Positions 46,115 to 50,730 of a stretch of 53,594 nucleotides of DNA are shown piece by piece. Location of the stretch: contig CALJOK010000083.1 of the NCBI GenBank assembly GCA_937981555.1, forward strand, positions 1 through 53,594, written 5' to 3'. Below the pieces are notes generated by a model. It worked only from the letters and a program-made list of their open reading frames with translations, did no database searches and was not told the origin of the DNA. The translations under genes were made by a program, and so were the position numbers. Within the stretch, counting starts at the first letter, position 1. Each line of letters starts with the position of its first letter. This DNA is from an uncultured Saprospiraceae bacterium. Lineage in GTDB: Bacteria; Bacteroidota; Bacteroidia; Chitinophagales; Saprospiraceae.

Positions 46115-47710
46115 ATGAAAAACCTTTGGTTCGCATTAATTCTTCTTTTTTCAGCTAGCCAACTTTTTGGACAAGCATCATTAGAAGCCATTGATGATAT
46201 TCCTGCTAGTCTTGCCGCAACTATTACTGCAGATGATTTACGAGCACATTTATCGATACTTGCTTCCGACGAATTCGAAGGACGAGAAACAGGAACGGAA
46301 GGAAATCGAAAAGCTGCAGAATATATTGCTAATCATTTTAAGTCATTAGGATTACCAACAATTGGTGATGACGATTCTTATTATCAAAACGTAATGTTTA
46401 CTTGGACGAAATGGGAAGAAGCAAGCTTGGAAGTGAACGGTGAAAAATTCAGACACTTGTGGGACTTTTTATCCTTCCCTTCTCGGAATGGAGAAATGCC
46501 AATGTTGCAAATTGATGAGGTGGTGTTTTTAGGATACGGGATCGATGATGAGAAACATAGTGATTATGGCAAAAAGAATTTGAAGGGAAAAACCATTATG
46601 ATTTACAAGGGAGAACCTATGGACAAAAAAGGAAACTCTCGAATTACAGGAGATACAACACCTTCAGAATGGACTACAAATTGGGAAATGAAATTAAAAA
46701 AAGCACATGAAAAAGGAGTGAAGACTGTCTTGTTCATCGAGAATAATTTACAAAAAGAAATTAGCGAAAATCGAAGATTTTTAGTTGGTGCCAAAATGAC
46801 TTTAGGGGAGCAGGCTGATCCTTCGACGATGTATGCCAATAGTGCTTATATCTCAACCAATATTGCAAAAGCAATCATGGGAAAGAAAGCTAGAAAAGTA
46901 ATCAAGGCTAGAAATAAAATAAAGAAAAAAGGAAAATCAAAAAGCGTTACTATTCCAACTAACATGAAACTTGTTCAAACAAAAGATATCAAAACTTTAG
47001 TTGGAAATAATGTTTTGGGATTCATCGAAGGAAGTGATCCTAAACTAAAAGATGAAGTAGTAGTGGTGACGGCGCATTATGATCATTTGGGGAAAAGAGG
47101 CGAAGATGTTTACAACGGAGCAGATGACAATGGATCTGGAACGAGTACAGTTTTGGAAGTGACACAAGCATTAGTCGAAGCAAAAAAACAAGGACAAGGA
47201 CCAAGAAGAAGTATTTTATGTATGTTGGTTACAGGGGAAGAAAAAGGATTATTGGGATCTCAATTTTATGCTGAGCATCCGATTTATCCAATTGCGAATA
47301 CTGTTGCTAATGTGAATGTAGACATGGTAGGTCGAGTAGATGAAAAATATACAGATAATCCAAATTACGTTTATGTGATTGGTTCAGATAGGTTGAGTAC
47401 AGAACTTCATGACATTAATGAAAACGTGAATAAAAAATATACCAACTTAGTTTTGGATTACACTTATAATGAGGACGATGATCCAAATAGATATTACTAT
47501 CGATCAGATCATTATAATTTTGCAGAAAAAGGAATTCCAGCGATCTTTTACTTTAATGGAACACATGCAGATTATCACCGAACTTCAGATACAATTGAAA
47601 AAATTAATTTTGATAAAATGGCGATCATTGGAAAATTAGTTTTCCATACTGCTTGGCAATTAGCTAATCAAGATAAAAGAATTGAAGTAAATGTAGAAGG
47701 AAGGAATTAG
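46115..47710 (+). CDS. M28 family (aminopeptidase) zinc peptidase
   Basis: This 531-residue exported protein has a signal peptide (MKNLWFALILLFSASQLFGQ), a region of about residues 40-90 typical of the M28 N-terminus (LRAHLSILASDEFEGRETGTEGN), and an intervening PA-type insert. The M28 catalytic core shows VVVTAHYDHLG, YNGADDNGSG (zinc-bridging Asp), GEEKGLLGS (Glu base and zinc ligand), NVDMVGR and THADYHRTSDT (last His ligand). It should release N-terminal amino acids from peptides in the periplasm or outside. A terminator follows at 47738. Confidence 0.92.
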   Translation: MKNLWFALILLFSASQLFGQASLEAIDDIPASLAATITADDLRAHLSILASDEFEGRETGTEGNRKAAEYIANHFKSLGLPTIGDDDSYYQNVMFTWTKWEEASLEVNGEKFRHLWDFLSFPSRNGEMPMLQIDEVVFLGYGIDDEKHSDYGKKNLKGKTIMIYKGEPMDKKGNSRITGDTTPSEWTTNWEMKLKKAHEKGVKTVLFIENNLQKEISENRRFLVGAKMTLGEQADPSTMYANSAYISTNIAKAIMGKKARKVIKARNKIKKKGKSKSVTIPTNMKLVQTKDIKTLVGNNVLGFIEGSDPKLKDEVVVVTAHYDHLGKRGEDVYNGADDNGSGTSTVLEVTQALVEAKKQGQGPRRSILCMLVTGEEKGLLGSQFYAEHPIYPIANTVANVNVDMVGRVDEKYTDNPNYVYVIGSDRLSTELHDINENVNKKYTNLVLDYTYNEDDDPNRYYYRSDHYNFAEKGIPAIFYFNGTHADYHRTSDTIEKINFDKMAIIGKLVFHTAWQLANQDKRIEVNVEGRN

Positions 47711-47737
47711 GATAAACGTCTAATATAAAAATTGAAA

Positions 47738-47771
47738 AGAGCGTCACAAGTTAAACTTGGACGCTCTTTTT
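47738..47771 (+). terminator. Rho-independent terminator after the M28 peptidase
   Basis: An AGAGCGTC/GACGCTCT stem with an inner CAAGTT/AACTTG pair is followed by TTTTT. Confidence 0.85.
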
Positions 47772-47835
47772 CGTTTCATTGGATTACAAAATTCTATTAG
47801 AAGCAAAGCCGAAGCTTTGCGAGTAGGCAAAAAAA

Positions 47836-48040
47836 AAGTGAGTTAAGAACCGACCTTACCCCCCAATAAGCTGGTTCCACTCACTTAGTTTAAGGTCACT
47901 TCTGACCTCAAAGATCTTTACTTAATTATTCCTTCTGTGTTTGATAGTGTTCTTAGTGTCCTTCGATACGGGGGTATCTGGGAGGAACTTTCGTAAAAAT
48001 CTTTTTCTTTTGGATTCCCTCATTTGGGAATTGTTTTTTT
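47836..48040 (+). ncRNA. candidate structured small RNA, unit 1 (C6-loop hairpin)
   Basis: The 5' part forms AAGTGAGT / ACTCACTT (47836-47843 with 47879-47886) and an inner GAACCG / TGGTTC stem around a CTTACCCCCCAATAA loop. Next come AGGTCA-CTTC-TGACCT (47893-47908), GATAC-GGGG-GTATC (47965-47978), a TGGGAGGAA box (47979-47987), and a terminator ATTCCC-TCATTT-GGGAAT plus seven T (48014-48040). No protein is encoded. The match to unit 2 in loop, mini-hairpin, box and spacing is the main evidence. The 5' end is a guess. Confidence 0.62.
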
Positions 48041-48321
48041 ATAAAGGAGTGAGTAATGAGACCGATATTACCCCCCAATAAATCGGTCTCACTCACCCTT
48101 TATAAAGTCATTGCTGACTCTATTTCTTTATTCTCCAACCAGTAAAAAATACTGATTTTCGATTCACATTTTTTTTTACAAACTTATGGGAGGAAGTTAG
48201 AAATGGAGGTTTTGAATTTGAAAAACTGAGTGATAATTTTTCCGCTCATTTTGTTTCCCAAAGACATATATGTATTTCCAACAACTGTGCCAGTTAAGTT
48301 TTTTAACTGAAATATTTTTTT
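48041..48321 (+). ncRNA. candidate structured small RNA, unit 2 (C6-loop hairpin)
   Basis: The first hairpin spans 48041-48103: ATAAAGG and GTGAGT pair with ACTCAC and CCTTTAT with one bulged A, and an inner perfect 9-bp stem GAGACCGAT/ATCGGTCTC presents ATTACCCCCCAATAA. Then come AGTCA-TTGC-TGACT (48106-48119), CAGTA-AAAAA-TACTG (48140-48154) and the TGGGAGGAA box at 48187-48195. A terminator CAGTTAA/TTAACTG plus T run ends it at 48321. Compared with unit 1, the stems differ by paired changes while the loop and box are kept. Confidence 0.62.
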
Positions 48322-48692
48322 ATTTAAGATTAAAAAATATTTGTTGAAAGTAGTTTTCTCATTTCTGTAATTCTACCTATAAGTAATTTTTCAAAAAGTT
48401 TTTTGATTCATTTTTCTAAAAAGAAATCATCAACTCAACTTTGTAACTTTCTCTTTAACTTTTTAAAAGAGTATGTTATGCGTTACGATTATTCCTTTTG
48501 CAATTTTGAAGCCAACACTTGCCAATTTTTTTTTTCGAAAATCAAAATTGTGACACGGGAAAAAATTACATAGTTATTTTTTTAATTATTTGAAATGATA
48601 AAACTGCACTTTTGACCTTTTTGTGAAAATGTCAATGTTTGCAAGGCGTAGAACTGTCTTATTTCTCCGTCAAATTGGCAGATTTTAGGCAA

Positions 48693-48708
48693 TGGCACAT
48701 CGTTTGGA
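48693..48708 (+). promoter_or_regulatory. sigma-54-like promoter element upstream of htpG (weak)
   Basis: TGGCAC-N5-TTGGA matches the -24/-12 layout with the correct 12-bp spacing, except that the -12 GC is GG here. It lies about 160 bp upstream of the htpG start. No activator gene is seen nearby, so this is only suggestive. Confidence 0.25.
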
Positions 48709-48864
48709 ACAGGGTAAACTGTGTATTTTAAACAATGATTTTTTTTTCATAATTTCTTTAAAAATCTATAAATAAATTTTTAAAAAAATTGAAGAACCTT
48801 TAGAATACTCAGATTTAGAAAATCTTCCTAAGATTCATTTTTTATAAAAAAATAAAAACAAACC

Positions 48865-50730
48865 ATGCAAAAAGGTAATATTTCAGTTGAAACGGAAAAC
48901 ATCTTTCCCATCATCAAACAATTCCTCTATTCTGACCAAGAGATATTTTTGAGAGAATTGGTTTCTAATGCAGTTGATGCCACTTCTAAATTAAAAACAC
49001 TTGCGTCTAAGGGTGAGGTTAAAGGTGAAATTGGCGATATAACAATTGAAGTTTCGGTAGATAAAGAAAACAAGACGATTACGATTGCTGATAAAGGTAT
49101 CGGGATGACAGAAGCTGAGGTGATGAAGTATTTGAACCAAGTAGCGTTTTCGAGTGCGACAGAATTTTTGGAAAAATATAAAAACGAAAGTTCTATCATC
49201 GGACATTTCGGGTTAGGGTTTTATTCTGCATTTATGGTAGCGGATAAAGTGGAAGTGAAAACTCGTTCATACAAAAAGAATAAAAAAGGAACGACTTGGA
49301 CTTGTATAGGCGATACAGAATATACCATCGATTCGAATGATCGAAAAACTAGAGGAACTGATATCATCTTACATGTTAGTGATGATGCCACAGAATTCTT
49401 GGATGAAGGACGAATCGAAGGCCTTTTGACTAAGTACTGTAAATTCCTTCCAGTAGAAATTAAGTTTGGAACAAAAACAGAAACTTCATTTGAAGGAGAA
49501 GGCGATGACCAAAAAGAAATTAAAACGGAAGTTGATAATATCATCAATAACCCAAATCCGATTTGGAAGAAAAAGGCGAATAAATTAAAAGAAGAGGATT
49601 ATAAAAAATTCTACAATGAATTATATCCTTATTCTACTCCTCCTATGTTTTGGATTCACTTGGATATTGATTTTCCATTTAATTTGACAGGGATATTGTA
49701 TTTCCCAAAATTGGGTAATTCAATTGAAGTTCAAAAAAATAAAATTCAATTATACTCTAACCAAGTTTATGTAACTGATGAGGTTAAAGAAATTGTACCT
49801 GAGTTTTTGACTTTGTTACATGGTGTGATTGATTCGCCAGATATTCCTTTGAATGTTTCTAGAAGTTATTTGCAGAGCGATGCGAATGTGAAAAAAATCA
49901 CAGGTTACATTACTAAAAAGGTAGCTGACAAATTAGCTAGCCTTTTCAAAAAGAAAAGAGAAGACTTCGAATCAAAATGGAATGACTTAGGCGTATTCGT
50001 GAAATACGGAATGTTGTCTGAAGAAAAATTCCATGATAAAGCAAAGAAGTTTGTCTTATTAAAAGATGTGGATGGAAATCTTTCTACGATTGAAGAATTC
50101 AAAGAGAAGATAAAAGATGTACAGACAGACAAGCATAACAAATTAGTGATGGTTTACACTAATAACCCTGCTAGTTCTGACACCTATATAGAGGCTGCAA
50201 AAAATAAAGGATATTCTGTATTGCAATTTGATAATGTGATTGATAATCACTTTATACAGCATATGGAGTCAAAATTAGGAGATGTTACTTTCGTTCGAGT
50301 AGATTCTGATACTGCTGATAATCTGGTGCAAAAGGATGAAGTGACTGAATCTGTATTGAATGAAAAAGAACAAGAGAAAGTGAAAACATTATTTGAATCA
50401 AAAGTAAGTCAAGCAGGTGCGACAATTACAATGAAAGCTTTGTCTCCTGATGATTTGCCAGTTCAAATTACTCGACCTGAGTTCATGCGAAGAATGAAAG
50501 AGATGCAATCATTGCAAGGAATGGGTATGGAAGGATTCCCTGATAGTTATAATGTGGTAGTCAATTCAAACCATCCTTTGGTCGCAGAAAAATTATTGAA
50601 AATGCGAAGCGAAGAGAAGAAAGAAGATTTCGTTACACATCTATATGATTTAGCTAGATTGAATCAAGGAATGTTGCAAGGAGCAGAGTTGAGTGCATTT
50701 GTTAATAAGAGTTTAGAGTTTTTGAAATAA
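48865..50730 (+). CDS. htpG: molecular chaperone HtpG (Hsp90)
   Basis: This 621-residue chaperone has the GHKL ATPase N-terminus (QFLYSDQEIFLRELVSNAVDA, TIADKGIGMTEAEV, IGHFGLGFYSAFMVADKV) and the middle-domain NVSRSYLQ motif (residues around 330). The C-terminal domain is present and complete. It assists folding of client proteins under stress in the cytoplasm. It starts with ATG and ends in a clear terminator. Confidence 0.96.
   Translation: MQKGNISVETENIFPIIKQFLYSDQEIFLRELVSNAVDATSKLKTLASKGEVKGEIGDITIEVSVDKENKTITIADKGIGMTEAEVMKYLNQVAFSSATEFLEKYKNESSIIGHFGLGFYSAFMVADKVEVKTRSYKKNKKGTTWTCIGDTEYTIDSNDRKTRGTDIILHVSDDATEFLDEGRIEGLLTKYCKFLPVEIKFGTKTETSFEGEGDDQKEIKTEVDNIINNPNPIWKKKANKLKEEDYKKFYNELYPYSTPPMFWIHLDIDFPFNLTGILYFPKLGNSIEVQKNKIQLYSNQVYVTDEVKEIVPEFLTLLHGVIDSPDIPLNVSRSYLQSDANVKKITGYITKKVADKLASLFKKKREDFESKWNDLGVFVKYGMLSEEKFHDKAKKFVLLKDVDGNLSTIEEFKEKIKDVQTDKHNKLVMVYTNNPASSDTYIEAAKNKGYSVLQFDNVIDNHFIQHMESKLGDVTFVRVDSDTADNLVQKDEVTESVLNEKEQEKVKTLFESKVSQAGATITMKALSPDDLPVQITRPEFMRRMKEMQSLQGMGMEGFPDSYNVVVNSNHPLVAEKLLKMRSEEKKEDFVTHLYDLARLNQGMLQGAELSAFVNKSLEFLK

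Follow-up and report, generated by a model that had tools for sequence, protein, structure and literature searches.

What is encoded by the pair of repeated, hairpin-forming units that lies beside the chaperone gene htpG in this genome, and on which strand is it read? The window analyzed here is a 53,594-nt stretch from an uncultured Saprospiraceae bacterium. A sequence-only reading had placed two tandem, covarying, structured units at 47836-48321 and had read them on the plus strand. The letters proved to be as given, and the two units were borne out. The sequence TTACCCCCCAATAA occurs at 47856-47869 and 48068-48081 and has no further exact copy anywhere in the 7.25-Mb assembly; when at most two mismatches are tolerated, the window holds 2 matches versus 0.36 expected, a number reached by 6 of 100 shuffles. 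The TGGGAGGAA box (plus-strand reading) was found at 47979-47987 and 48187-48195, and its claimed distances from the C-run, 120 and 116 nt, were correct when measured start to start. The GTGAGT/ACTCAC stems and the GTCA/TGAC hairpins were likewise confirmed in the region of both units.

Further copies were collected by searching 60 relatives at the DNA level and 248 family genomes by pattern (4 with a match). The resulting alignment A1, with 23 hairpin copies from 11 genomes, was made into covariance model R1. A second model, R2, was built from 141 matches.

Structure and strand of the RNA

The paired stem changes, which had been claimed as compensatory from the window, recur in the relatives. 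In the alignment of 141 rows, which was fitted to the structure, double-sided changes were present in 24/24 modelled pairs, and 94.7% of the cells were able to pair versus 78.0% in shuffles. This alignment contained 586 double-sided cells versus a shuffle mean of 135.8, and none of the 500 shuffles reached the score. The unfitted alignment retained double-sided change in 19/24 pairs. Conserved secondary structure with compensatory changes thus marks these sequences, by comparison, as a structured RNA family.

The strand was assigned through comparison of the relatives, which reversed the call made on the single sequence. For 22 of the 23 hairpins, folding was better on the minus strand (sum of -504.0 versus -410.5 kcal/mol). 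The ratio of G-U to A-C cells was 62:8 in the unfitted alignment A1, whose structure was predicted on the minus strand, and 411:38 of 3265 cells in the fitted alignment, which leans toward the minus-strand model it was fitted to. On the minus strand, 74/139 units carry a T4 run no more than 12 nt 3' of the hairpin, versus an A4 run on the other side in 10/139; these counts were made on fixed alignment columns, with 2/141 rows left out as not matched. Fold-defined ends yielded T4 in 30/137 and A4 in 6/137 units, and the fixed columns were preferred because folding pairs the A- and T-runs. Sigma-54 promoter motifs are situated 5' of the arrays on the minus strand. The G-U excess, the side of the T-runs, the side of the promoter and the folding energy indicate an RNA on the minus strand, and we hold with high confidence that the locus belongs to a minus-strand RNA family.

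The opposite orientation, in which a plus-strand RNA would carry a C6 loop and a G-rich box, draws some support from plus-strand folds that also beat shuffles (z = -3.2 and -5.3) and from a hairpin with a T-run at 48013-48032, but all four lines of evidence above favor the minus strand. Plus-strand transcription was rejected as a candidate on folding energy, G-U versus A-C and T-run side, and we regard an RNA in this orientation as very improbable. Read on the minus strand, the loop consists of six G and the box is rich in C, so the locus is not of the C6-loop, G-box type. Plus-strand transcripts of roughly 200 and 280 nt, which had been expected, found no support; the predicted transcript is a minus-strand RNA of about 430 nt. 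Plus-strand T tracts do lie downstream of both units, as had been noted, but inspection by eye showed the plus-strand hairpin and T-run at 48013-48032 to be confined to the same genus.

The latter stretch, a hairpin followed by T7 between the units on the plus strand, has arms that changed yet still pair within the genus (by eye). It is possibly a second, plus-strand terminator or a mere linker stem.

In the window, the predicted RNA would run from about 48266 to 47829, its start near 48266 being predicted from the spacing to the -12 element. Its parts, in the direction of transcription, are as follows.

48278..48292, minus strand: RNA sigma-54 promoter TGGCAC-N5-TTGG, a -24/-12 (GG/GC) motif; transcription predicted
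48049..48266, minus strand: RNA unit A, promoter-proximal, with C-tracts, P2 hairpin and G6-loop hairpin (covariance model match 48041-48152, 105.6 bits, to a model built from sequences including unit A)
48204-48210, minus strand: second unit A tract, ACCUCCA (sequence)
48187..48195, minus strand: unit A C-tract UUCCUCCCA, which is TGGGAGGAA on the plus strand (sequence)
48106..48120, minus strand: unit A P2 hairpin AGUCA-GCAA-UGACU (helix 1, double-sided change in 7/7 pairs)
48049..48096, minus strand: unit A G6-loop hairpin, T-run absent after the hairpin (sequence, fold)
47829..48048, minus strand: RNA unit B, promoter-distal (covariance model match 47830-47940, 105.8 bits; fold z = -3.7)
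47992..48001, minus strand: unit B helix P1, 5' strand GAUUUUUACG, paired with 47913-47921 in the fold
47969..47987, minus strand: unit B C-tracts, UUCCUCCCA at 47979-47987 and ACCCCCG at 47969-47975 (sequence, fold)
47913..47921, minus strand: unit B helix P1, 3' strand GUAAAGAUC (fold)
47893..47909, minus strand: unit B P2 hairpin AGGUCA-GAAG-UGACCU (sequence, fold)
47838..47884, minus strand: unit B terminator hairpin with loop UUAUUGGGGGGUAA, followed by T9 at 47837-47829 (sequence, fold)

On the minus strand, a unit consists of C-rich tracts (in the higher-scoring members), then the P2 hairpin, then a terminator-type hairpin. The minus-strand cores of both units beat shuffles in folding (z = -5.4 and -7.2). 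In unit B of the window, the C-rich tracts are enclosed by helix P1 in the fold, and the ACCCCCG tract forms the loop of a small hairpin, GAUAC-CCCC-GUAUC. The features of an intrinsic terminator, a GC-rich hairpin and a T-run after it on the transcribed strand, are seen in unit B and not in unit A. Since no T-run follows the G6-loop hairpin of unit A, this hairpin is probably read through or processed, and the transcript is perhaps shortened or processed after unit A. In the family as a whole, T4 is missing after the hairpin in about half of the units (65/139).

The loop is nearly constant in the family. It reads GGGGGGUA in 135/140 units and UGGGGGGUA in 120/140, while the stem varies; G6 is present in the loop of 140/140 units, in matches to a model that favors G6. 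A loop kept nearly letter for letter on a stem that is free to change suggests a specific recognition event, the partner of which can be searched for.

Promoters and the htpG neighborhood

The array lies back to back with htpG, and sigma-54-type motifs precede both. The features of the region between them are listed below with the gene.

48500..48514, minus strand: second sigma-54-like site, TGGCTT-N5-TTGC, which precedes a small ORF in relatives such as genome G101
48668..48680, plus strand: CGTCAAATTGGCA inverted repeat, 12-13 nt before the htpG -24 element, a possible activator site
48693..48707, plus strand: htpG sigma-54 promoter TGGCAC-N5-TTGG (motif)
48865..50730, plus strand: htpG (Hsp90 chaperone), divergent neighbor (PF00183, 1.8e-47)

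The neighborhood was compared over 91 loci. They come from the 87 R1-positive genomes and G004, three of which contribute two loci each; an antisense match in L046 was dropped before the counts were made. htpG was divergent and adjacent in 76/91 loci, and in none had it the same orientation as the RNA. The spacing between the RNA and htpG was 151-815 nt in 75 loci and 2307 nt in one, and the intergenic counts given here use 75 of the 76 loci, leaving out the one with 2.3 kb. Of the 15 loci without adjacent htpG, four (L045, L148, L135 and L117) reach the end of the contig less than 100 nt upstream and two (L089 and L098) less than 1 kb upstream; the remainder have other neighbors.

The exact pattern TGGCAY-N5-TTG was found on the htpG strand in 66/75 intergenic regions (shuffle mean 0.57, maximum 3) and on the RNA strand in 31/75 (shuffle mean 0.39, maximum 2). 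A weight matrix, whose weights and threshold were set by hand from a consensus after the exact-pattern results were known, placed a sigma-54-like site in the 250 nt preceding the RNA in 51/75 regions, versus a shuffle mean of 3.05 (maximum 7) and 11/75 on the opposite strand; at this threshold, 24/75 loci have no such site within 250 nt. In 7 of the 11 first loci, the sigma-54 site was 180-196 nt 5' of the first hairpin. The motif is also found where htpG is not the neighbor. Among the 11 loci with upstream sequence and no adjacent htpG, six scored about 10 or more on the matrix (L101 10.0, L129 11.9, L088 11.9, L089 12.2, L121 16.6, L103 10.6) and five did not. The genome also contains rpoN. 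From these motifs, we consider a link of the RNA to sigma-54 very likely.

The link of htpG to sigma-54 is wider than the RNA, as htpG was present in each of 30 examined family genomes without an R1 match, and 18 of them have the exact sigma-54 motif before it. A search of the window's own genome with the sigma-54 pattern, one base off, gave 8 matches including htpG versus 6 for the backward pattern, from which no wider regulon can be drawn. Near the htpG promoter, the inverted repeat TGNCA-N3-TGAC was present in 35/75 regions (the window and 34 related ones). In 31/31 regions in which the exact htpG promoter motif is present too, the repeat precedes the -24 element by 12 or 13 nt. Sites for sigma-54 activators do not usually lie so close and at so constant a distance. 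In Flavobacterium psychrophilum, the sigma-54-type (SM4) promoters reported in the accessible part of the source include, in a selection, those of groES-groEL, lon, dnaK, grpE-dnaJ, htpG, skp, clpB and the sRNA Rfp36 (PMC9723704). By analogy, we infer that sigma-54 may serve protein quality control in Saprospiraceae too.

A small conserved ORF (about 80 codons, beginning LITKFYYKNNHLCFQIL) immediately precedes the RNA, in the same orientation, in L042 and 24 other RNA loci, and was also observed in L167. HMM searching counted it in 25/91 RNA loci and in 1/30 loci without the RNA. In L042 the ORF sits between htpG and the array, on the RNA strand, and its stop codon abuts the RNA sigma-54 promoter there as well as in L039, L130, L152 and L102. 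No Pfam match above the cut-off was obtained for three members and no NCBIfam match for two. The window is without the small ORF, and a sigma-54-like site is kept where the ORF would start.

Distribution and novelty of the family

The sequence-only reading had proposed a covariance model search in Bacteroidota, which revealed homologues with a conserved loop and paired stems in Saprospiraceae. R1 matched 87/246 Saprospiraceae genomes at E ≤ 0.01, in 48/112 genera. In broader samples, which include family members and were searched with stricter filters that lose weak matches, R1 matched 7/149 genomes of the order and 4/296 of the phylum, and R2 matched 3/247 of the class; among the matches listed, all were within Saprospiraceae. 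A pattern scan of named genomes yielded 31 stretches from Saprospiraceae/Saprospirales but for one in the cultured strain Portibacter lacus YM8-076, on contig NZ_JAJNKA010000001.1 (L217), which we take to be a member of Saprospiraceae. In 2 of the 30 examined family genomes without an R1 match, a G6 hairpin divergent from htpG was found that R1 had missed.

The family had been suggested to be an unrecognized one, and this view stood. Rfam 15 (4227 models, Flavo-1 included) gave no match at gathering score in the whole window, and its matches up to E = 5 in 47700-48870 were all far below gathering scores; a known Rfam family was set aside on this basis. Rfam holds the Qrr RNAs; through Rfam matching alone, no sequence homology to Qrr or LhrC was found. 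In the accessible part of the open-access literature on small or noncoding RNA in Saprospiraceae and on sigma-54 and htpG in Bacteroidetes, this RNA is undescribed. By its sequence, it reads as a new, uncatalogued sRNA family with one to four tandem units.

Two other origins were considered and rejected. Phage origin was set aside as one pattern gave no stretches in viral contigs and phage records gave 7 weak partial matches. A protein-coding repeat was discarded after inspection by eye, as the 18-codon ORF of unit A is not kept in G001 or G003.

The number of units per locus was one in 57/91 loci, two in 23, three in 7 and four in 4. Contigs G020:C1 (L045) and G020:C62 (L039) both end inside nearly identical units. 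The array probably broke the assembly here, so draft genomes may understate the number of units.

Possible modes of action

Building on the strand, structure, conserved loop, promoter motifs, synteny and within-family distribution documented above, our best explanation is a minus-strand sRNA array with its own sigma-54 promoter, divergent from a sigma-54-controlled htpG, which would base-pair in trans (probability about 0.5). The array would be produced together with the active sigma-54 protein-quality-control regulon and would act post-transcriptionally. Each unit would present the GGGGGGUA terminator loop, and multi-unit members would add CCUCCC/CCCCC tracts. Base-pairing through the loop, the C-tracts or both appears to be the likeliest mode, at roughly even odds. 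Free tracts or loops may pair with other RNAs and lead to repression or protection, and several units would provide a higher dose. In this way, the array could add a repressor arm to a sigma factor whose own role is purely activating.

A C-tract was defined as six consecutive pyrimidines, five or more of them C, no farther than 150 nt 5' of P2; the count left out 16/140 units that were too short or contained N. C-tracts were present in 42/59 units of at least 75 bits (shuffle mean 14.1, maximum 21; mirror G-tract control 1) and in 17/27 units of 55-75 bits (shuffle mean 3.0, maximum 6; mirror control 2). Below 55 bits, they were found in 1/38 units (shuffle mean 1.2), with 14 in the mirror control due to extra G6 loops. 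The tract UUCCUCCCA is able to pair with the loop GGGGGGUA, and the computed energies of isolated tract-loop duplexes were -8.5 to -14.5 kcal/mol. Pairing between the C-tracts and G6 loops within one array is thus plausible in the higher-scoring class, as a possible latch that would determine at what times the RNA acts; it cannot be general, since the tracts are missing in the lowest-scoring class. The ACCCCCG tract of unit B is itself a hairpin loop, which makes a loop-loop contact possible.

A bolder version would be a self-latched, temperature-gated array, the C-tracts of which are locked on the G6UA terminator loops at normal temperature. Heat or proteotoxic stress would induce the array with Hsp90 via sigma-54 and open the latch, freeing CCUCC-like or G6UA surfaces for messengers or even the 16S anti-Shine-Dalgarno. 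We consider this a long shot; if true, the RNA would complement the chaperone response of Bacteroidota at the level of translation.

Targets were sought with the exact loop complement UACCCCCCA, which had 54 matches in 4 genomes. Among the 30 loci read, 6 were arrays and no site outside the arrays was shared; across genomes, only array loci matched each other. This reading covered 5 of the 21 non-array matches of G020 and all 7 of the window's own genome; six of these 7 fall within ORFs of 100 codons or more, and the seventh has no such ORF nearby.

The lack of a conserved exact target among these loci would also suit a protein-binding decoy, in which the repeated G6UA hairpins are a multi-copy protein site and the array sequesters an RNA-binding protein under stress. 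The near-invariance of the loop on changing stems (135/140), the tandem copies (2-4 units at 34/91 loci) and a second same-loop hairpin at some single-unit loci point in the same direction. However, the loop-complementary C-tracts of the higher-scoring classes suggest recognition of the loop by pairing as well, and we regard the decoy as unlikely, though a serious contender. The units may otherwise act in cis, as strong, structured terminators. Transcription of the small ORF or of the RNA region would stop there, and the htpG promoter region would be shielded from the neighbor gene. In favor of this, T4 follows the hairpin in 74/139 units and the small ORF precedes the RNA on the same strand in 25/91 loci. 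Plain terminators, however, have no need of a near-invariant loop and a second covarying hairpin; moreover, no small ORF was detected at 66/91 loci, the T-run is often missing inside arrays (T4 in 27/49 non-last units), and the RNA has its own promoter motif. We regard such a role in cis as improbable.

The proposed trans-acting array resembles several known systems in part. RepG of Helicobacter pairs through a homopolymer-like tract in its terminator loop, which is C/U-rich for a G-tract, whereas the array loop is itself the G-tract. Qrr1-5 of Vibrio, as described in the accessible part of the source, are likewise several similar, sigma-54-dependent sRNAs with activators that work from a distance; they differ in being LuxO-activated for quorum sensing and Hfq-dependent, and no chaperone link was found there (PMC2680268). 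LhrC1-5 of Listeria are multicopy stress sRNAs with CU-rich motifs, one of them in the terminator loop, which pair at the Shine-Dalgarno region of a messenger. According to the accessible part of that source, the LhrC loop is CU-rich and the RNAs are under LisRK control, whereas the present family has a G6UA loop, C-tracts upstream and predicted sigma-54 control (PMC4132741). By analogy, Qrr and LhrC may be functional counterparts of the array, kinship apart. Rfp36 of F. psychrophilum is, in the part of the source at hand, a Bacteroidota sRNA with a sigma-54-type promoter, likened here by promoter; it lies at 840245, far from htpG at 2117454, whereas the array adjoins htpG (PMC9723704). The array model matches in the order, class and phylum samples lie in Saprospiraceae only, among the matches listed. 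Chaperone control and the sRNAs that participate in it are little known in Bacteroidota, and an RNA that is divergent from htpG and, like it, preceded by a sigma-54-type promoter motif is a concrete candidate for an RNA component of the protein-quality-control regulon.

At L086, L090, L095, L131 and L153, inspection by eye revealed that the CUGGGGGGUA loop recurs in a second hairpin-like stretch shortly 5' of the single unit, as if the loop were a portable module.
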